A stretch of DNA of 21,651 nt from Candidatus Schekmanbacteria bacterium. GTDB lineage: Bacteria; CSSED10-310; JACPHN01. The stretch covers positions 1 to 21,651 of the forward strand of contig JACPHN010000074.1 in the NCBI GenBank assembly GCA_016188575.1, given 5' to 3'. The stretch's first letter is position 1. Every line of letters starts with the position of its first letter. Below, piece by piece: positions 736 through 21,651 of the stretch. A program made the position numbers and the translations under genes. Below the pieces are notes generated by a model that was given only the letters and a program-made list of their open reading frames with translations, did not search any database and was not told the DNA's origin.

Positions 736-3700
736 ATGCGCACCATCGAAGGCAAGCCCGCCAACCCCGTCGCGCCCTTCCCGCTTGAAGCCCCGAAGCT
801 CACCGCCGCCACCTCCACCGACCAGCAACCAGCACCGGCGGCGGCGCCGGAGGCCGCGGCACCGGACGCGGCGCGGGCGGGCTTCACGACCTGGGCCGAA
901 ACGAGCTCGGGAAAGACCGTTGCGGATCTCTTTCGCAAGGCACAGGCGCGCGGCGTCGCGCCCGCTGCTTCGCCACCGGCACCCGCGCGCGGCGGTGGCG
1001 CCGGCGCGCCGCTGCCGGGCACGCTCATGCGCATGGGCGCCGCGGCCTTCCAACGCTCCCTGGATTCCCGCCTCGGGTCGGCCGCGACCTCGCCGCTGCG
1101 CCAGCTCGCAGCCTCCGCGGGGGACACGGCCGTCCTCGGCGCAATTCAAGCCCGCTTTCAGGCCGAGATCCAGTCGCTGGCCCGAGCTTCTCCGCAGGCG
1201 TTTCGCCGCATCCTCGAACAGGCGCTCGGAGCGAAGGCCTCCCCCGCCGTCATCGATGGACTGCTCCAGGCCGCCGCGCGGGGCGAGCTCCCTATCGCCA
1301 ATCGCATCGCCTTTGCCGATCCCGCCAGGATGGGGGGTGCCGACGGTGCCTACGTGGGCCGAGACGGGACGGTGTTGCTCAATCGCGACTTGCTCGACCG
1401 GCCCGAGGCCCTGTTCGCCGCGTTCACGGAGGAGGCGGGTCATCACCTCGACGCGCTGATCGGAGGAGTCGACGCGGCCGGTGACGAGGGGCAAATCTTC
1501 TACGAAGCGCTGGCGCAACGCGGACCACTGGCCCCGGAGGCCCTCGCTCGCGCTCTCGCCGACGATGACCACGGCAGCTTGGCGATGGGCGAACAGACCC
1601 GGGATGTGGAGTTTCGGCGAAGTGAAGGTGCGCCGCGAGCGCGCGTCGCCTTCGCGGACGAGACGGCACGACCAGACGAAACGCTCGCAGACGTCGCAGC
1701 CCGCTTCTACGGTGACCCGGCCATGGCCGACGTGGTTGCTGTATGCAACGGGATCACCGGCCCGACGGCGCTGCGAGACGGCCAATCTCTCCGACTTCCG
1801 CGCGATCTCCACCTGGGCACGGGCAGCCCCCGGCAGAATATCCTGACGAGCTTGGTAGACAACGAGGTCCTGCAGTCCGCACTGGGCGCCGGCCATCCGG
1901 GCGCCGCGGCGCTGCTCAGAGAGGCCGCGCACGCGGGGCTACCGCGCGCCGCCGACCAACTCGCGGAATCGCCCACCGAGCGCCTGACGGCGGCGGACTA
2001 CGCCGCCTTGATGCCCTATCTGCGCGAGCCGGTCCGCGTTGGCAATAGCGCCACCCGGCGCATCGAGGAGGCCGCTTCACAGGCGCAGCCCGCGGTTTTC
2101 GCCGCGCTGCTCGACACCGCTGCCAACGCGCCGAAGACCGGCGTGCGGCGAGCGGCAATGGCCCAGCTTGGTGCGTTTGCGCAGGCCGCAGCCTGTCCGC
2201 CCGCGGCCCGCGAGGCGATCGTGCGATTCCTGGCCGACACGGCGACGGGCGGCGACCGCGCCCGCGCCGCAGACTCCCGCGCCCAGCTTCTCGATCTCAT
2301 CGCCGCGGCGGGCGAGACGAATCCCGCGCTGCGAAGCGCCGCCACGGCCGCGGTTCGCGATACCGCCGATCCGGACCTGCAAGCGCTCGCCCTGGGTGAG
2401 CTCCCGGAGAGCCCCGTCGGCGAGCACGGCCTGCGCAACGTCGAGCGCAGCTTTGTCGGCCTCCTCTCAAACGAGATCAACAAGGCCTTCAAAGGCGGGA
2501 TCGCCGATGGTCGGTTGGCGCAACGTTTGCGCCTGCTCGGGCAGCTCGGGGAAGTCACGCGCATGGCGAATGACCCGAGCTCGGAGTTTTATGGGCGCAT
2601 CGATACCGATATGCTGCAGCAAAAGATGACTCACCTGCTCGCGCAAGACGACGTGCAGGCGCTCTACAAGTCGCTGCGTGGAGAAGCGATACGTTCCGTA
2701 TACGGCACCGACAGCATCGCTGCGAAGCAAGCCGAGTACATTCGCGGCGATACGTTCCGCGACCGACTGACGTTGCTCCCCGAAGCGGCGAGAGGCGGCG
2801 CGGTGGCGGCGGAGCTGGCGAAGCTCCAGGTTCTCGATCCGGCACTCGCGGAAGCCACGCGGGCAGGGCTGCAACAGGACATGGGACGGCAGCTTTCGGG
2901 CATTCGCGACGACTTCGCCTCGCTGCTCAACGCTCTTCCCGAGCAAGAAGCGCAAAGTCTGCTGCGCGCGGGGATTCTCGATGGATCGGCGGGAGCGTAC
3001 AAGACCACCAAGATCTTCAATACTCTCGCCGGGGCCTACGAGGCATTCCGTGAGGCGAATCCGCAGGGCAGCACCGCCGACTTCGTCAAGACGCTTCCGG
3101 CCGGCAGTGAGGAAGCGAAGGCCGCGGGCAAGCTGGAGGCGATCGGCCAGAGTGGGCTTCTCGGCACGCTGCTCGGCGTCTTTACCTTGCCGTCGCTGTA
3201 CGACAATTTCATGGCGGGTGGCATCAGCGCGGCGACGCTCTCGGACGCGTTCGAAGTGCTGGGCAACTCCGAGGATTACGCCAAACTGCTCGGCTATAGT
3301 GGCGAGGTGCTGGAAGGCATGCCCAGGCTGAACACGGGGCTCAAGCTGCTCGGCGTGGTCGGCGCCGTGGGAGACGGCATCGGGGCATATCTGAGCTGGC
3401 GAGACGGCCTGGCGCAGTTCGAGGCCGGCGATGACGTCGACGGTTGGGCCAACATGGCACAAGCGGCGGGGAGCGCGACCAGCGCCCTGACCGGCGGCAT
3501 TGCGGCCGGAGCGGCGCTGCTCGGCGTCACCGTGCCGCCGGCGCTCGCGGCCGTGGCACTCGCGGGTGCGATTGTCAGCGGCGTGGGCTGGGCGGTCGAC
3601 TCTGCCTTCGGCAAGTCCGAGGCCCAGGAGCTGCTGGAGCGCCTCGACCTGATCCAGGAAGAGGTGACGCCGGAGGACCGCGACAAGCTCGGCGCTTTCG

Positions 3701-4406: not shown

Positions 4407-4422
4407 AATTCACCGCCTGGTC

Positions 4423-4492
4423 GACTGCAAGCTGCGCGGAATGCGCATCACGAAGACCCCCCACCTCCCCTCCGGCAAGCGGGGGGAGGGGC
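4423..4492. repeat. Dispersed intergenic repeat, copy 1
   Basis: This stretch begins GACTGCAAGCTGCGCGGA and ends in a C-rich/G-rich inverted arrangement (CCCCTCC ... GGAGGGG). It is repeated in the same orientation at 10892-10966. The first 35 bases differ at only two positions; the second half is conserved with small indels around the C-tract. On the minus strand the unit reads as an SD-like GGAGG followed by codons for GLRDAxSAQLAV. Copy 1 begins 28 bases after a stop codon and is not part of a recognised gene. Confidence 0.8.
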
Positions 4493-4662: not shown

Positions 4663-4791
4663 ATGATTTGTGATGGTCGTCGGTTCCCCCTACCCGGCAC
4701 CTCACCGCGGTGGCGATCCTCGTCATTCCCCCTTCCACGTGCGGGTGCACGCACCCTCGTCCCGCCGAATGCTCGGGCGCCATGGCGGTAA
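4663..4791 (+). CDS. Possible 42-residue leader peptide coupled to the kinase gene
   Basis: The ATG at 4663 has the strongest ribosome-binding site on this side of the window, AAAAGGAGG ending 8 bases upstream. Its frame runs MICDGRRFPLPG... for 42 residues, rich in Arg and Pro, and ends with TAA at 4789-4791, 10 bases inside the kinase gene in a different frame. The kinase start itself has no recognisable ribosome site. The arrangement fits translational coupling, in which ribosomes ending here restart at 4782. The peptide resembles no known family. A frameshift joining the two frames, or a chance ORF, remains possible. Confidence 0.4.
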   Translation: MICDGRRFPLPGTSPRWRSSSFPLPRAGARTLVPPNARAPWR

Positions 4792-7124
4792 AGCAGCAAG
4801 CACGGCGCCGGTTGGGGCGGTACGAGGTCACCGGGAGAATCGGCTCCGGCGCAATGGGTGTGGTGTATCGGGGCATCGACCCCGTGATCAGCCGCCCGGT
4901 CGCGATCAAGGCGATCAGCCGGGAGCTGCTCGACCATGAAGAAGTGCGGAATCGTTTCATTCGCGAGGCCCGTGCCGCGGGGCGCCTCACGCATCGCAAC
5001 ATCGTCACCATCTACGAGCTCGGAACCGACAGCTCGCGCCTTTTCATCGCCATGGAGCTCCTGGAAGGCAGCGAGCTGAAGCAGGTGATCGAGGAGGCTC
5101 GCCTACCGCTTCGCCAGCGACTCGACGCCATGGCGCAAATCTGCGACGGCCTGCAGTACGCGCACGACAACGGCGTGATCCACAGGGACATCAAGCCAAG
5201 TAATGTCTTCTTGCTCACCAACGGCACGGCGAAGATCCTCGACTTTGGTCTGGCCCGGATCGCGAGCTCTGAGCTGACGAGAACGGGCGCGGTGATGGGT
5301 ACGCCCAGTTACATGTCGCCGGAGCAGATCAGCGGACAAAGGGTCGGCCCGACCTCCGACATCTTTTCCGCGGGATGCGTATTCTACGAGCTTCTTGCCT
5401 TCGTGAAACCGTTCCCGGGAGACTCGATTCCGGCGATTCTGTTCAGTATCACGCATCAGGAGCCAGCGCCGCTGGAAGCGGTGTGCCCCGAGCTACCCGC
5501 GGAGCTGTGCATGCTGGTCACGCAGATGCTGTCGAAGCAGGCGCAGGCTCGCCCACAATCCATGGCAGAGGTAGCGAGCAGGATTCGCGAAACGCTGGCC
5601 GCGATACCGGAGAACGGCAATGGGAGCACGCATTCGCCGGCCTGGCGAGATGAGCCGCGGCCGGTGAGAGCCGAGGAAGCGCATGGTGGCAGTGCCCCGG
5701 GTCGGCCACTGGCAACGTGCTCGGTCACCCCGGATTCACAGGTATCGTGGGGATCGGTGGCGTCGCAGTCCGCGCAGTTCGTCTCGCCTCAGGTGGGGCC
5801 CGAGACCTTCATCGCGGCACCACGAGAAGTCGGCGAGCGGCGCGCCGGCAGGCGACGGCAGTTGGTGCAGCTTGGCATTGCCGCGGCAGCCGTCCTGGTC
5901 GTTGCGGCCGGTCTGGCAACCTACCTCGCCATCGCCCCCTCGGAGTCCGGCGAAGAACGCGCCGCCGAGCTCGCGATCGAGCCGCGGCAGGCGCCTGCTG
6001 CCGCCGGTGCCGAGCCCACTGCCGTCACGGCAGTGCCGAGCGGCGAGCCGCCGTCCGCGCCCGTGCAGCAAGCGGAGACGGCCCCCGCCGCGCTGGACGC
6101 CGATGCCGCAATGCCCACCGGTAGCGCCGTGGCCGAGCAACAGGCAAGCGCTGTGATCACCGCCGCCGTGGCGGTTCCGGAGCAGACAGCGCCGCCGCGC
6201 GACGATGCCGCGGCGGATGCCGCAGCGGATGCCGCTGCCGCCCGGGCCGCAGCGACCGAAGCGGCGCGGTTGCTGGCGGACGGCGAGCCGGAGGAGGCGC
6301 TCCGCGTCGCCAAGGAAGCACTTGCAGCGGCACCCGCGGACCGCGCGCTGCGCGGGGCCGCGGAGAAGGCGCGAGCGGCGATCGCGCGGCGCCAGGCCGA
6401 GCGCGACCGGCAGGAGGTGCGGCGGCGGGATGCGGCGCTCACGGCCGAAGCGGCCTACACCGACATGCTGCGCGGCGCCCCGGACCCGGGAGACAATGAG
6501 CTGATTGCAGCGGCCGTCGACGAGGCCATACGCCTGGCGGCGGGTGCGAGAAAGTTGCTGGTATCGAGAGAATACGAGGCGGCCGAGGTCGCCTATTTTG
6601 CGGCGCGGCGGCAGATGGCGAAAGCGGTGGCGCAGGCGCGAACAGCATCGCGGACCACTGCGGAACCGTCTGACGTCGCGGCACATTCGCTGCTGGCGCA
6701 CCTGGAAGCCCCGGGCGCGGACAGCGTGAAGCCGGTCGATGGCGCCGGCAATGGCGCGACGGCGAGCCGGCGGGGCCAAAAGACCGCGCGGGCGGAGCCG
6801 CTCTTGCCGCAGCTCGAGCGCGTGCTCGGCGACTACGCCGCGGCACTGGCGGCGAGGGACCTGGAGCGGCTGGAGCGGCTTTGGCCGTCGATGGAGGATG
6901 AGACGAGGAACAAGATCGCGGCGAGCTTTCGCTTCATCCGCAGCCAGCGGGTGGTGATCACGCCTGCCGGCGAGCCGGCGCAAGAGAACGGCCGGGTGGC
7001 GCTGCGCTGCCGAAGGACCGACACGATCGTCACCAGTGACGGCCAGGAGCTCCATCACGAGAGCGCGCCGACGGTGGTGTTTTTGCATCGCGGAGGCCAG
7101 TGGCAGATCGCCGAGATGAACTGA
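4782..7124 (+). CDS. Membrane-anchored Ser/Thr protein kinase with C-terminal NTF2-like domain
   Basis: A 780-residue Hanks-type (PknB-like) kinase. Its catalytic domain (about 14-275) has every key element: glycine loop GSGAMG (21-26), VAIK with K43, helix-C E62, HRDIKPSN (D136, N141), DFG (D154) and GTPSYMSPEQ in the activation segment. A linker follows, then a single membrane helix at about 363-385 (LGIAAAAVLVVAAGLATYLAI). Next comes a long Ala/Glu-rich, probably coiled or TPR-like, region. The last about 110 residues (LERVLGDYAAALAARDLERL ... GGQWQIAEMN) look like a SnoaL/DUF4440-type NTF2-like fold, probably extracytoplasmic, that might sense a ligand. ATG 4782 is chosen because kinase homology begins 13 residues later; GTG 4710 is also in frame. 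Neither has a good SD, but an upstream leader ORF ends over 4782. The barrel-protein gene begins 53 bases downstream and is probably co-transcribed. Confidence 0.93.
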   Translation: MAVKQQARRRLGRYEVTGRIGSGAMGVVYRGIDPVISRPVAIKAISRELLDHEEVRNRFIREARAAGRLTHRNIVTIYELGTDSSRLFIAMELLEGSELKQVIEEARLPLRQRLDAMAQICDGLQYAHDNGVIHRDIKPSNVFLLTNGTAKILDFGLARIASSELTRTGAVMGTPSYMSPEQISGQRVGPTSDIFSAGCVFYELLAFVKPFPGDSIPAILFSITHQEPAPLEAVCPELPAELCMLVTQMLSKQAQARPQSMAEVASRIRETLAAIPENGNGSTHSPAWRDEPRPVRAEEAHGGSAPGRPLATCSVTPDSQVSWGSVASQSAQFVSPQVGPETFIAAPREVGERRAGRRRQLVQLGIAAAAVLVVAAGLATYLAIAPSESGEERAAELAIEPRQAPAAAGAEPTAVTAVPSGEPPSAPVQQAETAPAALDADAAMPTGSAVAEQQASAVITAAVAVPEQTAPPRDDAAADAAADAAAARAAATEAARLLADGEPEEALRVAKEALAAAPADRALRGAAEKARAAIARRQAERDRQEVRRRDAALTAEAAYTDMLRGAPDPGDNELIAAAVDEAIRLAAGARKLLVSREYEAAEVAYFAARRQMAKAVAQARTASRTTAEPSDVAAHSLLAHLEAPGADSVKPVDGAGNGATASRRGQKTARAEPLLPQLERVLGDYAAALAARDLERLERLWPSMEDETRNKIAASFRFIRSQRVVITPAGEPAQENGRVALRCRRTDTIVTSDGQELHHESAPTVVFLHRGGQWQIAEMN

Positions 7125-8548: not shown

Positions 8549-10933
8549 TCACGGCTCCGCCTGCTCCGCCGCGGCGGCGAAGCGGCGGACGAGCTCCTCC
8601 TGGACCGCGGTTTCGACGGCGCGCGGCGAGCGCGCGCGACGGACCTCGGTCAACGCTTCGTCCGCGCTCGCACCGCGGCCTCTGAGCAGGCACGCGGCCG
8701 CGGTTCCCGACCGGCCAAGGCCGCCGACGCAATGGATCAGCACCGCTTCGCCCGCGTGCAGACCCTGCTCCAGCCAGCGAACGGCGGCGCGCATGTCTTC
8801 CATGTCGCACGTCTTCTGGTCCGCGATCGGCTGGTGGCGGACGGTCAGGCCGCGCGCCGCGTAGGCTCCGAGCAGCTCGGGGACGCCATATCGTTCAAGC
8901 TCCGCGGCGGTTACCAGGCAGAGCACCCGGCGCACGTCGGCTCGCGCCAGCGCCTCGAGATCCCGCTCCAGATCGCGGGCGTGGTCCCGCCGGCCGGGCA
9001 GGATGGTCAGCGCGATGCGGCCCGGGCGCGTCCACGCGGTGTCCAACCAGTCGAGGCGCAGGTCGGCCGACTGCTCGAGGTAGGCTGAAATCTTGGCGGC
9101 GCAGCGACCCGCCGTGTACAGCGCCCAGCGCTTCTGTAGCGTGCTCGATTCGTCGAAGGACAGAGTGTGAACGGCATAGCGGAGCTGGGCCACCCAGAGC
9201 TGAAACGGGTTGCGACTGGCGTGGATCAGCCCAGGGTAGTGGGCACGAAGCATCCTCACCGTCGCCCACGCGCGCTGGAGCTGCGGGAGCTCGCCCCCGC
9301 CACCCGCCGGCAGCTCTGCAGCGAGATCCCGCACCTGCATGAGCGCGTCCGTCAGGCGCAGCGCCGCCAGCAGCTCGGCATCGTCCACCAGTGGCGTCCA
9401 AATGTACAGGAGATCATTTTCGAGCTTGACGAGATCCATCAGGACGTGCGCGCGTCGGGTGTGGAAGAAGTCGATAAGCCAGACGTTTTCGTGCTCATCG
9501 AGAATGATATTGGCGCCATTGAGGTCGCCGTGGACGTACGCGTGATAGGAGCGGTCCCGGGCCCGCCGGGGAACCTGGTCGAGGGTGTGCTCGTAGAACG
9601 AGCAAACATTCGGCACCAGCTCGCCGGGCAAGATCTCCAGCGCACCGGCGCTCGCGGCGGCGGTGCCGACGAGGTTTTCGACCTGCGCCCGCACGCTCGC
9701 GGCCCAGCGACTACTGAACATGTAGGACTCGAGCAGGTCGTGCTCCTCGAGCTCGGCGGCGCGGTACAGCCGCCTGAGCTGCTCGCCGAACACGGTATCG
9801 AGGATGCGCTGGATCCGCTCGAGCGGCGCACCCGACAGGTAGCAGCGCTGCAGCGTCTGCGAGAAGGCCCCCCCCATCGACGCATATCGGTACTTGAGCG
9901 CACCGCGCTCGCCATAGTCAGCAAAATCGGCGATTTGGGGCGCGTTGTTGCCGAGCACGTCCTGGACTCGCTCAAAGGACATGCGCTCCTTGCCGATCGC
10001 GGCGCGGGGGCCGATCTTGAGCACGTGCGGAACCTGCTCGTGGCCGCGCAGGTCGATGCTGGTCGCGATCGCAACGACGTTTCCCGAGAAGCCGCCGGAA
10101 AGTGGCTTCAGCGACACGGTCCGGCAGTCGCGAAACAGGTAGCGAATCAGCGCGAGATCGGTATCCGCCAGCTCGGGGAGCGCGCCGCACAGCTCCGGCG
10201 AGCGGTAGTCCGAAGCGACGAGGGGCGCCACCCGGGATTCGCCGCCGAGGAATGCCACGAAGTCTCCCACCGAGTCGCAGACGCGCACGCCGAGCAGCCG
10301 CTGAAGCTGGTCGAGCGCTTCGAACTGGTGCTGTCGTGACGATGATGCGGTCAGCGCGGAGCAGACGGCGAGCTCCAGACGGGGATATCGGGTGCGCAGG
10401 TCGTAGGCGAGAAAGGTGACCTTGGCCTCGGTCCAGACTCCCATGATCCCCACCCGCAACGGCAGCGCAGCGTAAGGCGCCAGCGCCGGCGCGAGCACGG
10501 TCCCCTGAAAATCGCTGAGGGAAAGCGAGTCGATGACGGCGACGTCCTTGTCGTGACCATCCGGAATCGTGAAGGCGAAGCTCGCCCCTGCGGTGTTCCG
10601 CAGGCAATGCTGGCCAAAGCGCCGAAGATGTTCCTGCTGGTCCGGGTCGCTCGGGTCGTGCCAGTCGCGCAGGTGGATGATGCGGAGCTGATCATCTCGG
10701 GTCGCGTAGGCCCAGCGCATGACCTGCGCCACCGGGCCTTCGGCCGGGTTTTCACCCATCAGGCGCCGTGCTTCTGAAAAGCCAACGTGCAGGCGGTTTG
10801 GAATCGGGTCATAGCGACCAATCGGCATGACGAAGTCGTCTTGCAGACACTGGGTGAAGAGCAGCGAGGTTGCTGAAGCCGCCGCCGGTTTGACTGCAAG
10901 CTGCGCGGAAAGCGCATCACGAAGATCCCCCAT
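8549..10933 (-). CDS. Three-domain fusion: degenerate isochorismatase-like + APH-like kinase + CDKN3-like phosphatase
   Basis: A 794-residue protein. Residues about 23-215 have the isochorismatase/cysteine-hydrolase fold (LLFTQCLQDDFV with D33, HLRDWHDPSD, HCLRNTAGA, SLSDFQGT, GVWTEAKV). By motif alignment the catalytic Lys is Ser136 and the catalytic Cys is Lys171, so this domain is probably non-enzymatic. Residues about 270-610 are an aminoglycoside-phosphotransferase-like kinase: SGGFSG (279-284), K306, the HGDLNGAN loop (D470, N475) and the metal-binding D488 in LIDFFHT are all intact. The opening resembles the TCAD9 domain of bacterial conflict systems. Residues about 640-794 are a CDKN3-type dual-specificity phosphatase with HC-VGGLG-RSG (C735, R741) and a candidate general acid D705. 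The ATG at 10933 has GGAGG immediately upstream and falls 1 base after the recQ stop. The frame is open further upstream, but only as a shadow inside recQ. Kinase and phosphatase in one chain suggest reversible phosphorylation of a shared, unknown target. Confidence 0.88.
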   Translation of the reverse strand: MGDLRDALSAQLAVKPAAASATSLLFTQCLQDDFVMPIGRYDPIPNRLHVGFSEARRLMGENPAEGPVAQVMRWAYATRDDQLRIIHLRDWHDPSDPDQQEHLRRFGQHCLRNTAGASFAFTIPDGHDKDVAVIDSLSLSDFQGTVLAPALAPYAALPLRVGIMGVWTEAKVTFLAYDLRTRYPRLELAVCSALTASSSRQHQFEALDQLQRLLGVRVCDSVGDFVAFLGGESRVAPLVASDYRSPELCGALPELADTDLALIRYLFRDCRTVSLKPLSGGFSGNVVAIATSIDLRGHEQVPHVLKIGPRAAIGKERMSFERVQDVLGNNAPQIADFADYGERGALKYRYASMGGAFSQTLQRCYLSGAPLERIQRILDTVFGEQLRRLYRAAELEEHDLLESYMFSSRWAASVRAQVENLVGTAAASAGALEILPGELVPNVCSFYEHTLDQVPRRARDRSYHAYVHGDLNGANIILDEHENVWLIDFFHTRRAHVLMDLVKLENDLLYIWTPLVDDAELLAALRLTDALMQVRDLAAELPAGGGGELPQLQRAWATVRMLRAHYPGLIHASRNPFQLWVAQLRYAVHTLSFDESSTLQKRWALYTAGRCAAKISAYLEQSADLRLDWLDTAWTRPGRIALTILPGRRDHARDLERDLEALARADVRRVLCLVTAAELERYGVPELLGAYAARGLTVRHQPIADQKTCDMEDMRAAVRWLEQGLHAGEAVLIHCVGGLGRSGTAAACLLRGRGASADEALTEVRRARSPRAVETAVQEELVRRFAAAAEQAEP

Positions 10934-10966
10934 CTCACCTTCCTCCGGACGCGGGGGGAGGGAGGG
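10892..10966. repeat. Dispersed repeat, copy 2, at the recQ/fusion-gene junction
   Basis: This is the direct repeat of 4423-4492, beginning GACTGCAAGCTGCGCGGA. It covers the last about ten codons and stop of recQ (ending ALPPPASGGR). It also covers the SD, start codon and first 14 codons (MGDLRDALSAQLAV) of the fusion gene. The element therefore supplies translation signals and coding sequence to two genes. Confidence 0.8.
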
Positions 10967-12836
10967 CGGGCGGCGCCGTGCGGCGGCCCGCGACAAATGC
11001 GGCAATCGCTTCCAGAAACGCCATGCCGAACTGCTCCAGCTTGCGTTGGCCAACCCCGGTGACGCCGAGCAGCTCGGCGTCGCACGCGGGGCGCAGCGCC
11101 GCCATTTCGCGCAGCGTGCGGTCGCTGAAGACCACATACGGCGGCACGCCAAGCTCTCCGGCCAGACGCCTGCGCAGACCCCGCAGGACTTCGAACAGGT
11201 CGGCGTCCTGAGCTCCCGCGGCGATAGGGGCTCCGGGTGATGGCGTTGACTGCCGCGCGGGAACGCGGTCACGGGAAATGGAGACGAAAAACGGCACCGC
11301 GCCGCCGAGCACATCGCGTGCCGTGGGCCGCACCGACAGCGTGGGATACTCCTTTCCCGACTGCGCCACAAGCCCCTGAGCGATGAGGTGATCAAGCACG
11401 AGCCGCCAATGGTGCCGCGGCCGGTCGGCGCCGATACCGTACGTCTTGATCCGATCGTGGCCGAGCGCGTGGATCCGCTCCGTGCTCGCTCCGGCCACGA
11501 CGTCGATGACGTGCCCCATGCCGAAGCGCTGGCCGGTGCGCACGATCGCGGACATCACGATCTGCGCATCGCGCGTGGCGTCCACCGACTCGACTTCCCC
11601 CGCGCAAACATCGCACGCGCCACAGCTCGGCGGCGAATACACCTCGTCGAAGTAGCTCAAGAGCTGCTTGCGCCGGCACGCATACACCGTTGCAAAGCTG
11701 ACCATCGCCGCCAGGCAGCGGTTGGCGTGCTTGCGCTCCGCCTCCTCGGGAATCTGCTCGTTAAAGTAGCGGAGCTTCGGGATGTCGCCGAATCCGAGCA
11801 GCAGGAAGCATTCAGCGGGCTCGCCGTCGCGTCCGGCCCGACCCGTCTCCTGGTAGTATCCTTCCAGGCTGCGAGGCAAGTCGGCATGCAAGACGTACCG
11901 CACGTTGGACTTGTCGATGCCCATGCCGAATGCGATGGTTGCGACCACCACGTCGACCTCGTCGCGGTTGAACGCCTCCTGGTTCGCCGCCCGTTCTCGA
12001 TCCTCGAGCCCTGCGTGGTAGGCCACCGCGCGCACACCGTGATCTCGAAGCTGCGTCGCGGTCTCCTCCACGCTGCGGCGCGTCGTCCGGTAGATGATCC
12101 CTGCCTGCCCTGCGTGCTTTCGCACGAAGGAGAGAATTTGCTTGGCAGGGTTCACTTTTGGCCGGATGCGGTAGAACAGGTTTGGGCGATTGAACGACGC
12201 GCGCACGAGCAGCGGCGATCGCAGCCGGAGCTTGTCGATGATGTCTTCCTGGACGCGGGGCGTCGCTGTGGCGGTGAATGCGGCAATGGGCGTCCCCGGA
12301 AATCGCTCGGTCAGCGTCGCGAGCCCGAGGTAATCGGGCCGAAAATCGTGGCCCCATTCGGAGATGCAGTGCGCCTCGTCGACGGCGAAAAACGAGAGCC
12401 GGATGCGGGCGAGCGTGGCGAGGAACTGCGGCATGGCGAGTCGCTCGGGCGACACGTAGAGCAGGTCGAGGCCGCCGCGCAACAGGTGATGGCTGACCTC
12501 GTTCTGCTCCCAGGGCCACAGCGCACTGTTGAGGTAGGCAGCCCGGAGCCCGGTCGCGGTGGCGGCGTCGACCTGATCCTTCATCAGTGATATGAGCGGG
12601 CTGACGACGACGCAGGTGCCCTCGAGAAGGTGGGCGGGAAGCTGGTAACACAAGGACTTGCCCCCACCGGTGGGCATGACGACAAAGGCGTCGCGAGCCG
12701 CCAGGAGCGCACGAATCACCGGTTCCTGGTGCGCGCGAAAGGCCGGGAAGCCGAAGAGATCGCGCAGCACGTCAGTCAGTGCAGGAGGAGAGCTCGCCGG
12801 CGAGGTCGTGCCGCGGATGTCAGCGGAGGCCGTCAT
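10935..12836 (-). CDS. recQ: ATP-dependent DNA helicase RecQ
   Basis: A 633-residue 3'-5' superfamily-2 helicase of recombination and fork repair, near the usual length (about 610). The helicase core shows HQEPVI near residue 36, Walker A PTGGGKS (K60), DEAH (153-156) followed by CISEWGHDFRPDY, SAT-like FTATATP (187-193) and QETGRAGRDGEP (329-340) with the motif VI arginines. The RecQ zinc cysteines are at C387, C405, C408 and C411. A winged-helix RQC region follows, and residues about 550-625 form an HRDC domain (DLFEVLRGLRRRLA ... VTGVGQRKLEQFG). The ATG overlaps the TGA of the ABC transporter gene (ATGA), so translation is coupled. The last residues (PPALPPPASGGR) lie in the dispersed repeat and are probably an acquired tail. 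The setting between an exporter and a kinase/phosphatase gene is unusual for recQ. Confidence 0.96.
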   Translation of the reverse strand: MTASADIRGTTSPASSPPALTDVLRDLFGFPAFRAHQEPVIRALLAARDAFVVMPTGGGKSLCYQLPAHLLEGTCVVVSPLISLMKDQVDAATATGLRAAYLNSALWPWEQNEVSHHLLRGGLDLLYVSPERLAMPQFLATLARIRLSFFAVDEAHCISEWGHDFRPDYLGLATLTERFPGTPIAAFTATATPRVQEDIIDKLRLRSPLLVRASFNRPNLFYRIRPKVNPAKQILSFVRKHAGQAGIIYRTTRRSVEETATQLRDHGVRAVAYHAGLEDRERAANQEAFNRDEVDVVVATIAFGMGIDKSNVRYVLHADLPRSLEGYYQETGRAGRDGEPAECFLLLGFGDIPKLRYFNEQIPEEAERKHANRCLAAMVSFATVYACRRKQLLSYFDEVYSPPSCGACDVCAGEVESVDATRDAQIVMSAIVRTGQRFGMGHVIDVVAGASTERIHALGHDRIKTYGIGADRPRHHWRLVLDHLIAQGLVAQSGKEYPTLSVRPTARDVLGGAVPFFVSISRDRVPARQSTPSPGAPIAAGAQDADLFEVLRGLRRRLAGELGVPPYVVFSDRTLREMAALRPACDAELLGVTGVGQRKLEQFGMAFLEAIAAFVAGRRTAPPALPPPASGGR

Positions 12837-14620
12837 GCCTGGCTCACCACCTGTGGCGCCCCGACTGTGATCGCCTTGCCTCCCTGAATGGAAAGAATCT
12901 GGTCGGCCTCGCGCAGGAAGTGGACGCGGTGGGTGATGAAGACGACCGTCATTCGGCCTCGCAGGAGGCGCACGGCGTCGAGGATTTTCCGCTCGCTGTC
13001 GACGTCCAGCGCGCTGGTCGCCTCGTCCAGAATGAGCAGGCGCGGGCGCCGCAACAACGCGCGGGCGAGCGCCAGGCGCTGCCGCTCCCCCCCCGACAGG
13101 CGTGAGCCGCGGTCACCGACCACGGAGTCCTGGCCCGCCGGAAGCTGGCGGACGAAGTCCGCCGCGGCCGCGCGATCCAGCGACTCCCAAATTTCCTCAT
13201 CCGTCGCATCCGGGCTCGCCCACCGGAGGTTGGCGCGGATCGTATCGTGAGAGAGAAACGTCTCTTGCGGAACGTAGCCGAGCCCGGCCCGCCAGGACGC
13301 GACCCGTTCGGCGACCAGCGGCCTGCCATCGACGAGGATCCGCCCGCTGTCAGGCACAAGCAGGCCCATCAACAGGTCCGCAAGTGTGCTCTTCCCCGCT
13401 CCCGACTCACCGACAATCACCGTGAAGGAGCCGGCGGGCAACGTGAAGGAAGCCTCGTCGAGCACGGCTCCGGGCGTGCCGGGGTCGTACGAGAACGAAA
13501 TACCCTCGGCGCGTAGCTCTTCTTCGAGCAGGAGTGGCGCGGCCTCCGCGGCGGCCGACACCGACCTCGGCTCCGCCATTCCGCTGGCCTCCTGGAGCGC
13601 CCGGGAATAGCTCGCGAACGCCGGGAGACAGTGGGCCAGCAGATGCAGGTCTCGCTGCAGATTCGTCGTTCTCGGGAGAATTCTCGTGAAGATGAAGATG
13701 AGCACGAGGACCCTGCTTGGGCTGGTCTGTAGCGTCGCGAACGCGAACCAGACAAGCAGTGCCAGCAGGGCGGCACCGGAAATCGAGCTCACCATGCCCG
13801 CCGTCGCATTGTTCGCCTGAAAGGCGAGCTGGGTGCCGCTGATCTCGGCCAGCGCGCTCCGGAAGGAATCCAGTGTCCGTTTCTCGGCACCAAAGCTCTT
13901 GGTCAAGCGCATTCCGGCGAGGTGGTCCGTGACCGTGCCGTAGAGGATGCGGTCTGAGGAGCTCAGTTTCGAGCCGAACAGTTCCGACCGCGAAATACCG
14001 GCGCGTTGCAAGACCAGCAGCAACCCCGCGCCGATGGCGGCGAGCGCGGCCATCGCCGGAGAAAGCGAGCACGCGGTCGCGCCGTAGATGATGAGCATGG
14101 AGGATTCGACGATGACGCGGAGGAGCAAAGACGTCCCATGCCCGATCCGCCGGACATCGGAGGTCAAAGTTTGCACGAAATCGCTTTGCCGGCTGCGGAG
14201 AAAGTAGCGCCACGAGGCGCTTGCCAGGGCCGCGTAGTAGCGTCTGGACAGGTGCTCGGTCAGGCCGATCTGAATCCGCCCGCCGGCAACCGCTTCCGCG
14301 CGGAGCAGCAATCCCCGCAGCGCCACCAGAGCGACGAACAGGGCGAGCACATTGGGCAGCGAGGCGCGCATGCCGGCAAGCTCGAAGAGCGGCGTCAGCG
14401 CGCTTGAACGGGCGGAGCCCGGGCCGCCACCCGTGACTCCGGTCAGCTCGAGCAGCGGCACCAGCAGCACGAGGCCGATACCTTCGGTAACCGCGGAGGC
14501 CATGGTCAGAGCCAGCCACCAGGCAACGCGGCGCCCGCCGTAGCCAGCCACGGTGCTCAAGAACTCGATCGTGACGCGCACGAGACGGTGGTCATCGCGA
14601 TGCCGTCCCGCCTCAGACAC
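12833..14620 (-). CDS. ABC exporter, fused membrane and ATPase domains
   Basis: A 595-residue half-transporter (MsbA/type IV exporter architecture) that would work as a homodimer in the inner membrane. Hydrophobic segments lie near residues 32-58, 88-107, 165-206 and 275-312, interspersed with polar loops. The ATPase domain (about 365-595) has Walker A GESGAGKST (404-412), Q-loop Gln452, signature LSGGERQ (508-514), Walker B LLILDEATSALD with Glu533, and the switch His564 in FITHR. The GTG start at 14620 overlaps the end of the nucleotidyltransferase gene by 8 bases and the TGA overlaps the recQ ATG. In related genomes such exporters next to PF14907 proteins export modified peptides or envelope glycans; the substrate cannot be read from the sequence. 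Confidence 0.92.
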   Translation of the reverse strand: MSEAGRHRDDHRLVRVTIEFLSTVAGYGGRRVAWWLALTMASAVTEGIGLVLLVPLLELTGVTGGGPGSARSSALTPLFELAGMRASLPNVLALFVALVALRGLLLRAEAVAGGRIQIGLTEHLSRRYYAALASASWRYFLRSRQSDFVQTLTSDVRRIGHGTSLLLRVIVESSMLIIYGATACSLSPAMAALAAIGAGLLLVLQRAGISRSELFGSKLSSSDRILYGTVTDHLAGMRLTKSFGAEKRTLDSFRSALAEISGTQLAFQANNATAGMVSSISGAALLALLVWFAFATLQTSPSRVLVLIFIFTRILPRTTNLQRDLHLLAHCLPAFASYSRALQEASGMAEPRSVSAAAEAAPLLLEEELRAEGISFSYDPGTPGAVLDEASFTLPAGSFTVIVGESGAGKSTLADLLMGLLVPDSGRILVDGRPLVAERVASWRAGLGYVPQETFLSHDTIRANLRWASPDATDEEIWESLDRAAAADFVRQLPAGQDSVVGDRGSRLSGGERQRLALARALLRRPRLLILDEATSALDVDSERKILDAVRLLRGRMTVVFITHRVHFLREADQILSIQGGKAITVGAPQVVSQA

Positions 14621-15815
14621 GGCGCCACGCCCTTTTCGCGTACTTGCGCGCCAGGCGGAGCAGGCGCACGGGCGCGTGAAGCACTGTCGGAACGTGTGAA
14701 TCCGCGGACGGCAGCCAGTCTTCCGGGGTGAGCTGCAGGGGTCGCAGCAGCATGAACCTGAGCCGCCGCCAGCACCGGCTCGGAAGCTGGAGCTGGAGCC
14801 GCTGGAGCTCCAGCACCGCGGCCAGCGCTGACAGGTTGGCTTGCTCGAGGGTGCGCCGCGCCGCCGCGACCGCGTGCTCGCTCACCGCCGGCCAGCGCCT
14901 CGTCTCCCAGTAGAGCTCGGGAGGAACGGGAGTCTCCAAGAGGTGGTGAGCCGTCCAGGCACCCAGCGCCAGGAAGCGTTCGGCCCCGATTTGTCTGGCC
15001 AGCGAGACGGCGGCGGCCCAATCCAACGGCAGTCTGCGAGCGCAATACGCACCCATGACTGCCACCCATTCGAGCCGGGACCACAGGTGATACGATCCGT
15101 GGACGGCGTGAATCAGCGCGCTGTCGAGAGCGCTCGGGGCCGGCACCGCAGCCGCTCCCGCGCTGCCGACCGCCACCGCGGTGCCACGGCGAGCGACGTC
15201 CTCGAAGCGCAACGGCAAGGAGAAATGCGGCGGTGTGAGGCGCCAGTGCAAATCGACGAAAACGGCATTTGCGCCGCTGACGAACGGTTGCTCGTGATAG
15301 GTCTGCCGATATAGCCAGTCCCAGCGCCGGGGGAGCTCGACCTTTGTAGCATAGCCGGCCGCGCGGAGCACCTGCCGCGCGGCGATCACGTCGTGGGGAT
15401 GCACGAGCAGGTCGAGGTCACGAATTTGGCGGAGCGCAAGACTGCCGTACACGGCCATGGCGAGCACCGGCCCCTTGTAGCAAAGCGCAGAGATGCCGGC
15501 GCGCTCAAAGGCCGCAACCAGTCGGACCAGCTCGGCGGCCAGCAACAGGTTGCGCGCCGTGTGGCACCGCCGCTGCCGGGCCACGGTGGCGCGGGCGGCA
15601 GCGCTCACGGACAGCTCAGGGTGGTCGCCCAGGTAGGCTCCCAGCAAGGGCAGCATCCCGTGAGCTGACGCTACGCTCACCAACGCTGCCGGGTCCGGCG
15701 GTCGGCGCTCGACCTGGGCGCGCAGGCCGTCAGGGGCAGGGACACCGGCCACAGCGCGCGCGGCCGCAAGCACCAGCGCGAGCTCGGAGGACGTAGGAAG
15801 CAGGATATGGGGCAT
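14613..15815 (-). CDS. Nucleotidyltransferase family protein (PF14907-like)
   Basis: A 400-residue protein of the uncharacterised nucleotidyltransferase family. The diagnostic core is CYKGPVLAMAVYGSLALRQIRD followed by LDLLV: the KG pair at 114-115, YGS, then the metal-binding D133 and D135 (D-x-D) of the pol-beta fold. Helical regions flank it, and a conserved-looking HEQPFV ... VDLHWRL segment follows the core. Members are found in lasso-peptide and exopolysaccharide clusters, often beside an ABC exporter as here, but the nucleotide acceptor is generally unknown. The ATG lies about 50 bases from a predicted transcription start. This is the first gene of the four-gene operon that runs down to 8549. 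Confidence 0.88.
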   Translation of the reverse strand: MPHILLPTSSELALVLAAARAVAGVPAPDGLRAQVERRPPDPAALVSVASAHGMLPLLGAYLGDHPELSVSAAARATVARQRRCHTARNLLLAAELVRLVAAFERAGISALCYKGPVLAMAVYGSLALRQIRDLDLLVHPHDVIAARQVLRAAGYATKVELPRRWDWLYRQTYHEQPFVSGANAVFVDLHWRLTPPHFSLPLRFEDVARRGTAVAVGSAGAAAVPAPSALDSALIHAVHGSYHLWSRLEWVAVMGAYCARRLPLDWAAAVSLARQIGAERFLALGAWTAHHLLETPVPPELYWETRRWPAVSEHAVAAARRTLEQANLSALAAVLELQRLQLQLPSRCWRRLRFMLLRPLQLTPEDWLPSADSHVPTVLHAPVRLLRLARKYAKRAWRRV

Positions 15816-17085: not shown

Positions 17086-17727
17086 TCATCCGGCGAGGGT
17101 CAGCGGTGCCGGTGGAAAACTGATGTGCTTGTGTATCTTGGCTCCCAGTTGGCTATCGGTGAGGAATCCCGTCGGATCGACCGAGGTCACCGGCTCGTTG
17201 CCCGCGTAGGCGTAGCCGTCCAGCATAATGGCGGCGCCGGGCGTGGCGAGGAGCGGATCGGCGCTGACAAACCTCCCGGTGTCCGCGTCTAGCCAGCGCG
17301 CGCAGTGGTAGGCGAGCGCGGTGTCGCGGTCGGCGGGCTCGCCCGTGAACCCGTACGGCTGCGCGTCGCCGCCCTGATGCGGGAGCATCTCCCCGAAGGC
17401 GGAGTGCGGGTAGCCATCGATGGCCGCGCCCGCCGCGCTGATGGGCGCCGGCACCGAACCGAGAGCTTCGACATGAAGGTAGCGGATTTCCCTTTCACGG
17501 ATTACCGCCAGCAGCTCGTCGGCGGCGCGGGCGTAGTGGGCGGTGGGGTTGCTGGCGGCGGCGAGCGCCGCGACCACGTGGCTGAGCCCGCCGGCGGCGT
17601 CCACCAGGCATTGGGCCTCGGTCACAGGCTCGCCGGGCGGCGCCAGCCGCGCGCTGACGCGGTTGCCGTCGGCGTCGTAGTCGTATTCCACCACTGCACC
17701 GCCCGCGAGCGCCGCTCGGGTCGTAGC
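17086..17727 (-). pseudogene. Orphan Rhs C-terminal tip, truncated
   Basis: This fragment matches the end of the adjacent Rhs protein: LAGGAVVEYDYDADGNRV, LVDAAGGLSHVVA, ARAADELLAVIR, SAFGE, PYGFTGEP, CARWLDADTGRFVSADPL, GYAYAGNEP and the closing SVDPTG. The homology is in frame from about 17727, directly after two TGA codons, so no complete core or proper start remains; the first usable start is a GTG at 17694. After DPTG a different 26-residue tail (FLTDSQLGAKIHKHISFPPA...) replaces the toxin seen in the main Rhs protein, then a TGA. Displaced tips of this kind downstream of an Rhs gene and its immunity gene are known reservoirs for toxin exchange by recombination. A short translated product cannot be excluded. 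Confidence 0.8.
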
Positions 17728-18281: not shown

Positions 18282-21200
18282 CTACCTCCTCAACCTTCTT
18301 ACGGGAACAAGGCGAATATAGGTCCTGTACGTTCTGCTGAGCTCGCGAAGCGTTTTCTTGAATACGGAGTCTCTCAAGATGAATGCGTCATCCTGGCTGA
18401 TCCCTACTAAAAACGCCTTCGTCTGGATTGTTCCTTTTGGTATTACCTGCTTGGTACCATACCTGTCAGGGCCTCTCAGCTCCCTGTTCTCAATTCCAAC
18501 CATCTTCCTGACATCACCGCGAATGGCGTCAATCAGTGATTTGGTATCTTTCCTGACATACGACTTTACCGAGGTGCCAGTCCCGCCGCGCAAATTATCG
18601 ATAACCTCGAACTTGCCTCCGATATTGGGGTTCGCGAGATCCTCGACCTTGCACCCGCGCGGACAAGGTCCCGGCGGGATATCGTCCGCGTTTCGCAGCC
18701 ACGCCTCGGTCGCCGAGTCGAGGAACTGGAGCGCCTCGGCGCTTACACTGACGCAATCCGCGATGGTGCCGAGGCGCTGCACGATGTAGGGCGACATCAG
18801 CACCGTGAACAGCACCCGATGATAGGACCCGATGACGATCGCCGAAAGCGTCTGATAGATCCGGGCCGCCTGAATGGTACTGATGAGCCCATACTGGCCA
18901 GTCGGATCCACCACCAGCACGGGGTCGTTCGCAGCGTAGGTGTAGCGGTGCAGCGAGCCCGGATCGTCGGAGCGGCCGCGCCAGGGGCCCATGCTGGCGA
19001 ACCGACCGGCGGCGGGATCCATCCACCGCGCGCGGTGGTAGGCGAAGCCGGAGCTCGGGTCGAGCGGCTCGCCGGCGAAGCGGTAGGGCTGCGGATCGGC
19101 GCCGTCATGGGAAAGCGGCTCGCCGAAGGCGGAGTAGGCGTAGCGGTCGGTGACCGCGCCGCTCTCGCCCGTAAGCGCGCGGATCGAGCCGATGCCGTCA
19201 GCGTGGGCGTAGCGGGTCTCCCCGCCCCGGACTACCGCGAGCAGCTCGTCGCTCGCGCGCACGTACCGAGCAGTGGGGTTGCCCGCGGCATCGAGCTCCG
19301 CGACGACGTGGCTGAGCTCGCCGGCGGGGTCCACCAGGTAGTGGGTTTCCGTCGTCGGCCCGCCGGGCACCGTGAGCCAGGTGGTCACGCGGTTGCCGTC
19401 GGCGTCGTAGTCGTGCTCGACCACCGTGCCATCGGCGAGCGTCGCCTTCACCAGCCGGCCGTCGAAGTCCCACTGGTAGCTCGCTGCCGCGTCACCGGCC
19501 TGGGAGATGAGCTGGCCATCGACGTTCCAGCTCCAGGGCGCGCGGTCTACCTCGAGCAGCCGGTCGCGGCTGTCGTAGGTGTAGGCGTTCGTTTGGGTGG
19601 TACCATCGGCCACGGTCTTCGCCTGCTCTCTCCGGTTGCCGACCGGGTCGTAGGTGAAGCGATGCTCGTAGACCAGCGTGCCCAGCGCGTCCCGCATTGT
19701 CTCCCCGGTGAGCCGGTCGAGGGCGTCGTAGGTAAAGGATCGAGCGGTGCCGTCGCCCTCGGCGATCGCGATCCGCTTGCCGGTCGGATCAAGAGTGAAG
19801 GCGTAGCGCTGCAGGACCTCGCCGGCAGCCGCGCTCGTGCCGAGCTCGAGCAGGCGATCCTGCGCGTCGTAGGCGTAGGAGGTCGTCACGCCGTTCGGGT
19901 ATTCGAGCGCGGTGCGGTTGCCGGCGGCGTCGTAGCCGAGCGTGTAGACGCCCCCGCTCGCGTCGGTGACCGCGGTCAGGCGGCCGACCTCGTCGTAGCC
20001 GTAGCTCGTGGCAAAGCTCTCGCTCCCGACCGTTGCCGTCAGCGCCGTCCGGCGGCCGGCGGCATCGTAGGTGTAGCCGAGCTTGCGACCAGCCGGGTCC
20101 TCGACCTCGAGCAGCCGCCCGCGGGCGTCGTAGCGATACGCGGTGATCCCGCGCCGGTCGACAACCGCGGCGCGCTCGCCCGCGGCGGTGTAGGTAAACC
20201 ATACCGTGCTGCCGTCCGAGTAACGGCGGGCGCGCACGCGGTCATTTTCGTCGCGCTCGTAGACGACGGTGTCGCCGCCGAAGCTCGTGCGGCTCACCAG
20301 GTTTCCGGCGAGGTCGTAACGCAGGGTCTCGGTGCTGCCGTCCGGCAGAGTGCGCCCGGTCATCCGGCCCATGGCGTCGTAAGCGAAGCTCGTGGTGTGG
20401 CCGTTCGCGTCGGTCTGGCTCGTCCGGTTGCCGACCTCGTCGTAGCCGTAGCTCGTCCGCTGGCCGAGGGGGTCGAGCACCGCGGTGAGCTCGCCCGCGA
20501 GATCGTATTCATACGCTGTGGTGCGACCGGCCTCGTCGGTCTCGGCGACGGGCCGGCCAGTCGCGTCGTAACGCGCTGCGATCGCCGAGCCGTCGGGAAA
20601 GACGGTCCGCAGGACGTTGCCGAGCGCGTCGTGCTCGTAGGTCGTCCGCCGACCCGCGGCATCGACGGTGGCGACGCGCTGCCCGGTGGCGTCGAGCTCG
20701 GTCGTCACGGTCCGTCCGAGGGCGTCGGTGGTAGACACCTGCCGGCCGGCGGCGTCGTAGGCGTAGGTCGTCTTCGCCCCGACAGCGTCGGTGCTCGCCA
20801 CCAAGCGGCCCGCCGCGTCGTATTCACGGGACTCCGTCGCCCCGTCGGCAAAGGTAGTCGAGATGCGGCGACCCGCGGGGTCGTAGGCGTGAGTCGTCGC
20901 CCGCCCGGCGCGGTCCGTCTGGCGGATCATCTGTCCATCGGCGTCGTAGTCGTTCACCAGACGCGTCCCGTCCGGGTACGTCACCGCGGTCACCCGGCCG
21001 TGCGCGTCGTAGCTCGTCGCCGTGTGCCGGCCGAGCGCGTCGATTTGCTCGACCTCCTGCCCCACCGCGTCGTAGACCGTGCGGACGACGCTCCCGTCGG
21101 GGTGGGTCACCGCGACCAGGCGGCCCAGGTCGTCGTACCCGTTGGCGGTCACGAGCTGCTCGGTCAGCCCATCCAGCGAGCGGCTGCGCACCCGCGTGAG

Positions 21201-21651
21201 CATCCGCCCCCATCCGTCGTAGGTCATCGCCGTCTCGTTACCGAGCGCGTCAACCTCCCTGGTCTGGTTTCCCCGCGCGTCGTAGGCGAAGCGCGTCACC
21301 GCGCCGGCGGCGTCGGTCGTGGACAGCAGGTTTCCCGAGGTGTCGTAGGCGTACAGCGTCGCGTTGCCCGCGGCATCGGTGGCCGAGAGCAGATTCCCCT
21401 TGGCGTCGTAGGCGTTGGCAGCGACCCGTCCCAGCGCATCGGTGGTCGCCAGCACCCGGCCGCCGGCGTCGTAGGTGTGCCGGGTGGCGTTGCCCAGCGG
21501 GTCGACCTCGCTCGTCAGGTTGTCCTGGGCGTCGTACGTGTAGCGGGTGGTATTGCCGAGCGGATCGGTCTCGCTGGTCAGGTGGTCGCGGGCGTCGAAG
21601 GTGCGCCGGGTGACTGCGCCGGTCTGGTCGATTTCCTCGACCACATTGCCC
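18282..21651 (-). CDS. Rhs/YD-repeat polymorphic toxin, 5' end outside window
   Basis: The frame is open to the right edge, so the N-terminal part is missing; about 1123 codons are visible. Most is a run of YD repeats with a unit of about 21 residues (YDAxGRLxxxTDAxGxxTxY), which in Rhs proteins builds a shell around the toxin. The core-closing segment follows (SAFGEPLS, PYRFAGEP, FAYHRARWMDPAAGRF, YTYAANDP, VDPTG at 18908-18897). It reads FASMGPWRG where most Rhs proteins have a DP motif (the orphan tip has SADPL). After DPTG comes a 204-residue tip (18896-18285) with a hydrophobic segment, a CPRGC motif and a basic C-terminal half containing FEVIDNLRGG, GTSVKSY and RLVPVRRLRR. A SVKS element preceded by acidic residues is compatible with a restriction-nuclease-like toxin, but this is only suggestive. 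An immunity gene follows at once. Delivery would normally need a type VI secretion or similar system, not seen here. Confidence 0.93.
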   Translation of the reverse strand, partial: GNVVEEIDQTGAVTRRTFDARDHLTSETDPLGNTTRYTYDAQDNLTSEVDPLGNATRHTYDAGGRVLATTDALGRVAANAYDAKGNLLSATDAAGNATLYAYDTSGNLLSTTDAAGAVTRFAYDARGNQTREVDALGNETAMTYDGWGRMLTRVRSRSLDGLTEQLVTANGYDDLGRLVAVTHPDGSVVRTVYDAVGQEVEQIDALGRHTATSYDAHGRVTAVTYPDGTRLVNDYDADGQMIRQTDRAGRATTHAYDPAGRRISTTFADGATESREYDAAGRLVASTDAVGAKTTYAYDAAGRQVSTTDALGRTVTTELDATGQRVATVDAAGRRTTYEHDALGNVLRTVFPDGSAIAARYDATGRPVAETDEAGRTTAYEYDLAGELTAVLDPLGQRTSYGYDEVGNRTSQTDANGHTTSFAYDAMGRMTGRTLPDGSTETLRYDLAGNLVSRTSFGGDTVVYERDENDRVRARRYSDGSTVWFTYTAAGERAAVVDRRGITAYRYDARGRLLEVEDPAGRKLGYTYDAAGRRTALTATVGSESFATSYGYDEVGRLTAVTDASGGVYTLGYDAAGNRTALEYPNGVTTSYAYDAQDRLLELGTSAAAGEVLQRYAFTLDPTGKRIAIAEGDGTARSFTYDALDRLTGETMRDALGTLVYEHRFTYDPVGNRREQAKTVADGTTQTNAYTYDSRDRLLEVDRAPWSWNVDGQLISQAGDAAASYQWDFDGRLVKATLADGTVVEHDYDADGNRVTTWLTVPGGPTTETHYLVDPAGELSHVVAELDAAGNPTARYVRASDELLAVVRGGETRYAHADGIGSIRALTGESGAVTDRYAYSAFGEPLSHDGADPQPYRFAGEPLDPSSGFAYHRARWMDPAAGRFASMGPWRGRSDDPGSLHRYTYAANDPVLVVDPTGQYGLISTIQAARIYQTLSAIVIGSYHRVLFTVLMSPYIVQRLGTIADCVSVSAEALQFLDSATEAWLRNADDIPPGPCPRGCKVEDLANPNIGGKFEVIDNLRGGTGTSVKSYVRKDTKSLIDAIRGDVRKMVGIENRELRGPDRYGTKQVIPKGTIQTKAFLVGISQDDAFILRDSVFKKTLRELSRTYRTYIRLVPVRRLRR
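18285..18896 (-). other. Variable C-terminal toxin tip of the Rhs protein
   Basis: This is the coding region after the conserved DPTG. It is clearly AT-richer than the repeat core, most strongly at 18290-18600, and uses codons such as AAA, ATA and TTT that are almost absent from the core. This composition break marks an exchangeable toxin cassette. Confidence 0.75.
19450..21651 (-). repeat. YD-repeat coding tandem array
   Basis: A degenerate tandem repeat with a period near 63 bases, each unit containing a GCGTCGTAG-like segment on the plus strand (coding Tyr-Asp-Ala). Nearly thirty YD motifs are visible. The units diverge at the DNA level but share register, as expected for an Rhs shell domain. 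Confidence 0.9.

Follow-up and report, generated by a model that had tools for sequence, protein, structure and literature searches.

A bacterial protein of 794 residues carries, in a single chain, a nicotinamidase/isochorismatase-like fold without the hydrolase triad (the N domain), an APH-like kinase of the TCAD9 type, and a dual-specificity phosphatase. It is encoded in the 21,651-nucleotide stretch of DNA analyzed here (the window) and belongs to a widespread family in which the kinase and phosphatase signatures are intact and a rebuilt site in the N domain is strictly conserved. We propose that the protein is a conserved three-part signaling or metabolic switch, a reading to which we assign a probability of roughly 40%.

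Gene, domain architecture, and family

The open reading frame of the kinase-phosphatase gene (Table 1) runs without interruption, and GGAGGAAGGTGAG, a Shine-Dalgarno-like sequence, lies 5′ of its ATG at 10933 on the minus strand. An AlphaFold2 model of the whole protein, built from a 32-sequence alignment, reached a mean pLDDT of 87.5 and a pTM of 0.72. Profile matches and the predicted structure agree with the original prediction that the three domains follow one another in this order in one chain. An assembly join or a frameshift between the domains can be ruled out for the window gene because its relatives, 45 to 56% identical, are colinear over the full length and 13 more were found independently. 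The domains are of known kinds; as the original prediction had supposed of this domain order, we found no description of the combination in the open-access literature searched (subscription papers were outside its scope).

Members were collected from one scan of species genomes, which yielded 37 loci. The family spans at least eight phyla, a count to be taken as a guide because bin labels can be wrong, and includes two cultured isolates, Panacagrimonas perspica DSM 26377 and Hyunsoonleella aestuarii KCTC 23449. The bins of relatives are labeled Pseudomonadota, Acidobacteriota, Nitrospinota, Myxococcota (Deltaproteobacteria), Bacteroidota, Chloroflexota, Planctomycetota, Sericytochromatia, and Spirochaetota. 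Two loci titled Bordetella parapertussis (L020 and L031) are MAG bins that group with betaproteobacteria, and their species label is probably wrong. At two loci (L045 and L049), mutation or sequencing error has divided the gene between two frames. Every member of the first alignment of relatives contains the exact peptide MGVWTEAK, which was one search pattern; its invariance is uninformative in that set and was discarded as evidence, and we therefore repeated the search using a profile restricted to the kinase domain. Among 48 genomes examined from the class of one spirochaete relative, this profile matched 24 and gave 13 new full-length members (the kinase-selected set). Phages, plasmids, and viral contigs held no full-length match to the protein, plasmid matches being restricted to the phosphatase part, and a phage or plasmid origin was rejected on these grounds.

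The 5′ end of the gene is formed by a copy of an interspersed repeat of ∼85 nt, which provides the ribosome-binding site, the start codon, and the first codons, as well as the final codons of recQ. Residues 1 to 18 of the protein have low confidence in the AlphaFold2 model and are without a counterpart in relatives. Another copy of the repeat lies at 4413 to 4490 in the window, and the genome holds at least 40 (385 candidates at first look), with the other copies 81 to 90% identical. The kinase-phosphatase gene is the last of four tightly packed minus-strand genes, preceded by a nucleotidyltransferase-like gene, an ABC transporter gene, and recQ, none of which is a conserved neighbor in the loci of relatives. 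As recQ is a neighbor in no relative, we ruled it out as a functional partner.

The genes upstream of recQ (12833 to 15815, minus strand) are an ABC exporter gene overlapping a PF14907 nucleotidyltransferase-like gene; gene pairs of this sort can occur in clusters for peptide natural products. Elsewhere, the window has RHS/YD-repeat reading frames near its end (17086 to 17694 and 18282 to 21644, minus strand), one of 1,120 residues and one shorter but related. Divergent from the kinase-phosphatase gene is a gene for an 804-residue serine/threonine kinase (4710 to 7124, plus strand), whose C-terminal stretch weakly matches SnoaL_3.

Table 1. Positions of the kinase-phosphatase gene, its domains and key residues, and adjoining features in the window
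Feature	Coordinates	Strand	Basis
Whole gene, 794 aa: nicotinamidase fold, TCAD9 kinase, dual-specificity phosphatase	8549..10933	-	ORF translation; colinear full-length relatives
N domain, nicotinamidase/isochorismatase-like fold without hydrolase triad, residues 20-236	10226..10876	-	Weak Pfam match, structure, profile-profile comparison
Gln28-Cys29: Gln28 at the PncA Asp8 position, Cys29 adjoining, conserved	10847..10852	-	
Asp90-Trp-His92, PncA metal-site motif	10658..10666	-	
His102, invariant, not at a known PncA ligand position	10628..10630	-	
His109, equivalent of PncA metal ligand His71	10607..10609	-	
Ser136 at the catalytic Lys96 position (Ala/Ser/Thr among relatives)	10526..10528	-	
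Lys171 at the catalytic Cys138 position	10421..10423	-	
TCAD9/APH-like kinase domain, residues 237-620	9074..10225	-	Pfam TCAD9; fold
Lys306, likely ATP-binding lysine of strand beta-3	10016..10018	-	Invariant; role from fold position
Kinase catalytic and metal residues Asp470, Asn475, Asp488 (HGDLNGAN...WLIDF)	9470..9526	-	Invariant in 32/32 and 13/13
Dual-specificity phosphatase, KAP/CDKN3 type, residues 621-790	8564..9073	-	Pfam CDKN3; 1fpz; 5z59/5z5a
Asp705, likely phosphatase general acid	8819..8821	-	Invariant in family alignment A4; role inferred
HC(X)5R signature, His734-Cys735 to Arg741	8711..8734	-	Invariant
Copy of interspersed repeat, ∼85 nt	10878..10965	-	At least 40 genome copies
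recQ helicase	10935..12836	-	3′ end 1 nt ahead of the kinase-phosphatase start codon

Kinase and phosphatase domains

The kinase domain matched the Pfam family TCAD9 (PF19974) far above its gathering score (E = 1.7e-57; 195.9 bits versus a cutoff of 40), which bears out its earlier assignment. Modeled alone, it had a pLDDT of 88.7, and its fold best resembled APH-family small-molecule kinases, namely, PsiK (Z = 16.5) and 5-methylthioribose (MTR) kinase, maltokinase, and APH(3′) (Z of ∼14 to 16). The protein-kinase-like fold is accompanied by the APH-like motifs H-G-D-x-x-x-x-N and I-D-F, found here as invariant HGDLNGAN and LIDF, and the three catalytic residues that had been read as intact, Asp470, Asn475, and Asp488, are all present. 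In their kinase-domain match and in their fusion to other domains, members of the family resemble typical TCAD9 kinases. Since other TCAD9 kinases carry an N-terminal response-regulator receiver, EAD7, or Ser/Thr kinase domain, an input domain ahead of TCAD9 follows the pattern of sensor and adaptor fusions in that family. One Chloroflexota genome holds several other TCAD9 kinases (L068 to L072) fused to receiver, EAD7, Ser/Thr kinase, and AAA_35 domains; by these fusions, TCAD9 is a general signaling kinase module.

The phosphatase domain matched CDKN3 in Pfam (E = 2.2e-17; 63.7 bits versus a cutoff of 20.7) and 5z59/5z5a at an E value of ∼6e-21, and residues 623 to 793 of the model superimposed on KAP (1fpz) with a Z of 26.7 and a root mean square deviation of 1.8 Å. 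The HC(X)5R signature (here HCVGGLGR, 734 to 741) is invariant in 28/28 and 13/13 of the members having the domain, so Cys735 and Arg741 are as intact as originally predicted. With KAP/CDKN3 and the archaeal and bacterial dual-specificity phosphatases Tk-PTP, SsoPTP, and ShufPTP, the domain shares the fold, HCX5R, and, probably, the use of Asp705 as general acid; unlike them, it lies within a larger chain that also contains an opposing kinase. The invariant catalytic residues of both domains are consistent with an active kinase and an active phosphatase. Four Nitrospinota members stop after the kinase, and no separate phosphatase gene was found within the loci examined; the opposing activities are therefore not universal in the family.

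The N domain is a rebuilt nicotinamidase fold

The Pfam match of the N domain to Isochorismatase is below threshold (E = 0.013; 16.1 bits versus a cutoff of 27). The structure model settles this weak match in favor of a nicotinamidase/isochorismatase fold, as residues 20 to 232 align structurally with nicotinamidases and isochorismatase-like hydrolases (3hb7, Z = 21.6; 3o90, Z = 21.2). Profile-profile comparison with genuine cysteine hydrolases gave a probability of 99.1 and an E value of 7.8e-19. Besides the fold (Z of ∼21), the domain has in common with PncA and isochorismatase-like cysteine hydrolases a D-x-H...H-C...T-G-A metal-site motif and the strand-helix pattern at the C terminus; unlike these enzymes, it shares its chain with a kinase and a phosphatase.

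The catalytic residues of PncA are Asp8, Lys96, and Cys138, and its metal ligands are Asp49, His51, His57, and His71 (PMC3025910). We mapped these positions with HMMER alignments to 1ilw, 3s2s, and 3hb7, with a joint MAFFT alignment that included eleven cysteine-hydrolase homologues from genomes, and with hhalign. The three methods concur that Lys171 stands at the Cys138 position and Ser136, or Ala or Thr in relatives, at the Lys96 position, as originally predicted. The Asp8 position, a third change that had been missed, is occupied by Gln28, with Cys29 as an apparent insertion beside it; a coordinate overlay might shift this placement by one residue. A reading of Cys29 itself as the replacement of Asp8 was withdrawn because MAFFT and hhalign agree on Gln28 and three relatives have Asp28. 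The triad is thus replaced at all three positions, Asp28 being retained in 3/32 relatives and the triad Lys and Cys in 0/32. Compared with PncA, the N domain also has the adjacent Cys29, a conserved extra segment, PNxLHxG (residues 45 to 57), and His102.

Most of the metal-binding motif seems to have been kept. Asp90, His92, and His109 align to the PncA metal site and are present in 30/32, 30/32, and 32/32 relatives, respectively, and in 13/13 kinase-selected members; His102 is a possible extra ligand. In the alignment, the PncA His57 position, whose assignment as a metal ligand is to the Mycobacterium tuberculosis enzyme, is not common to the N domain. As two Bacteroidota members are without Asp90 and His92, the predicted metal binding is not universal.

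The kinase-selected set gives a view of the site independent of the original search pattern. In all 13 members, Gln28, Cys29, Asp90, His92, His102, His109, and Lys171 are retained, although the neighboring Met164 gives way to Ile, Val, or Ala in 12 of them. Of the three domains, the N domain shows the strongest conservation: its mean pairwise identity is 0.62 in this set (kinase, 0.54; phosphatase, 0.46) and 0.56 overall (kinase, 0.50; phosphatase, 0.43).

A profile search in Chloroflexota revealed a standalone protein of 260 to 280 residues that is related to the N domain and has no Pfam match. These remote relatives (L112 [1183 to 2022, minus strand] and L143 to L148, all from Chloroflexia) have close homologues in further genomes of the same class. 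The standalone protein retains Gln28, Cys29, His49, Arg57, Asp90, His92, His102, His109, Lys171, Arg182, and His203, and no kinase of the family type was detected in 6/7 of the genomes that encode it. The N domain can therefore work alone, a finding that makes an enzymatic role more probable. At L164 and L165, the standalone gene lies between an upstream Hsp70 gene and a downstream ThiF/E1-like gene.

The earlier description of the N domain as dead does not survive these data. The replacement residues are fixed and recur in the standalone proteins, and neither of the other domains is as well conserved; the site has therefore been rebuilt rather than left to decay, and it may serve binding or catalysis. 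We consider it very improbable that the N domain is a hydrolase in decay, retained only as a structural spacer or for dimerization; the loss of all three triad residues would fit, but not a most conserved domain with fixed polar pocket residues that survives alone.

Proposed function

In the proposed switch, the APH-like (TCAD9) kinase would phosphorylate a substrate, probably a small molecule or peptide, and the dual-specificity phosphatase in the same chain would strip the phosphate, most economically from the substrate of the kinase. The N domain, with its fixed Gln28-Cys29/Lys171 pocket, would probably bind a metal together with a specific small ligand and thereby shift the balance between the two activities. 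The architecture, the folds, the kinase and phosphatase signatures, and the conservation of the rebuilt site are shown; we infer the binding of metal and ligand, the common substrate, and the regulation. We favor this sensor role, in which binding of a ligand or metal by the N domain sets the kinase/phosphatase balance, and we consider a new enzymatic activity nearly as likely, as the conservation data are compatible with both.

Should the N domain instead catalyze a new reaction within the old fold, the protein could be a multistep metabolic enzyme that works on a single metabolite with all three activities. The nucleophile might then be Cys29 or water bound to the metal, or Lys171 might form a covalent adduct. 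The near-invariance of the full set of potentially reactive residues, the standalone Chloroflexia version with the same residues, mostly without a kinase, and the resemblance of the kinase fold to small-molecule kinases all speak for such an enzyme. However, the triad of every compared cysteine hydrolase is missing, two members have lost two metal-motif residues, no metabolic neighbors are conserved across lineages, and a fixed binding pocket would leave the same picture in the sequences. In a bolder version, which we hold only tentatively and regard as somewhat doubtful, the N domain would represent a new clade within the isochorismatase fold. Its functional rebuilt site (Gln28-Cys29, Lys171, His102, and metal) would carry out chemistry unknown in the superfamily and, with the kinase and phosphatase, make a self-contained trifunctional enzyme or second-messenger device across many phyla.

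A switch of the kind we favor has partial precedents. AceK (isocitrate dehydrogenase kinase/phosphatase) and HPr kinase/phosphorylase combine opposing phosphorylation and dephosphorylation in one polypeptide, with both reactions carried out by one active site or fold. The family described here likewise has kinase and phosphatase activities, here predicted, in one chain; unlike those enzymes, it uses two unrelated folds and adds a third, input domain.

Genomic context and the question of a conflict system

TCAD9 was named from vWA-MoxR-VMAP systems (PMC10910872), and the protein might accordingly be a component of a MoxR-vWA conflict or protein-remodeling system. Its kinase and phosphatase would then modify or regulate the MoxR/vWA complex, and standalone copies would have a related or relic role. 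The next gene encodes a highly conserved MoxR-type AAA+ ATPase in 11/37 loci. A quick tree places these in three separated parts (betaproteobacteria, Acidobacteria gp18, and Nitrospinota), so that the family gene heads a MoxR and vWA-like operon in three lineages other than that of the window. The MoxR gene is mostly followed by a gene for an uncharacterized protein of ∼340 residues and then by one for a protein with HEIGHH and DxSxS (vWA MIDAS-like) motifs, and several of the loci also hold genes for a PaaK-like adenylating enzyme and radical-SAM proteins. Leptospiraceae have another MoxR gene and a DUF58/vWA gene downstream of the family gene.

Other observations make this role unlikely. Most relatives are without these partners: in other lineages, the gene lies beside MoxR-DUF58 genes, ArsA-like ATPase genes, or SpoIIE/STAS regulator genes, and no partner gene is universal across the loci of the lineages. 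MoxR and vWA genes are absent from the window, and a homologue of the specific vWA partner is absent from the window genome, where AAA matches are generic. The family differs from the TCAD9 kinases of vWA-MoxR-VMAP systems in its N-terminal rebuilt nicotinamidase domain, its C-terminal phosphatase, and the apparent lack of VMAP. PADLOC had no model matching the protein up to E = 1; the operon partners matched no PADLOC model, apart from a weak overlap of two radical-SAM genes with the viperin model, and no Pfam vWA or VMAP model, and the protein encoded between the MoxR and vWA-like genes, compared as the candidate third component (VMAP or iSTAND in MoxR-vWA ternary systems), had no Pfam match. 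For the window gene, the hint of a conflict-system role in the original prediction thus finds no support in PADLOC, in phage or viral-contig relatives, or in a vWA homologue in the genome.

The operon itself may be an undescribed system. Across the 11 loci (L019, L020, L021, L023, L031, L032, L039, L040, L041, L043, and L045), it comprises genes for the MoxR AAA+ protein, the 340-residue protein, the HEIGHH and DxSxS protein (zincin-like plus vWA-like), a 210-residue uncharacterized protein, the PaaK-like enzyme, and the radical-SAM proteins.

Implications

Placing a kinase and a phosphatase with unrelated folds behind a third, more constrained domain would give a compact switch that lends itself to testing. 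The repurposing of the cysteine-hydrolase fold can be studied in the rebuilt site as a natural experiment. As the family is widespread (24 of 48 genomes examined in one spirochaete class and at least seven other phyla) and is carried by cultured isolates, these proposals are directly testable.
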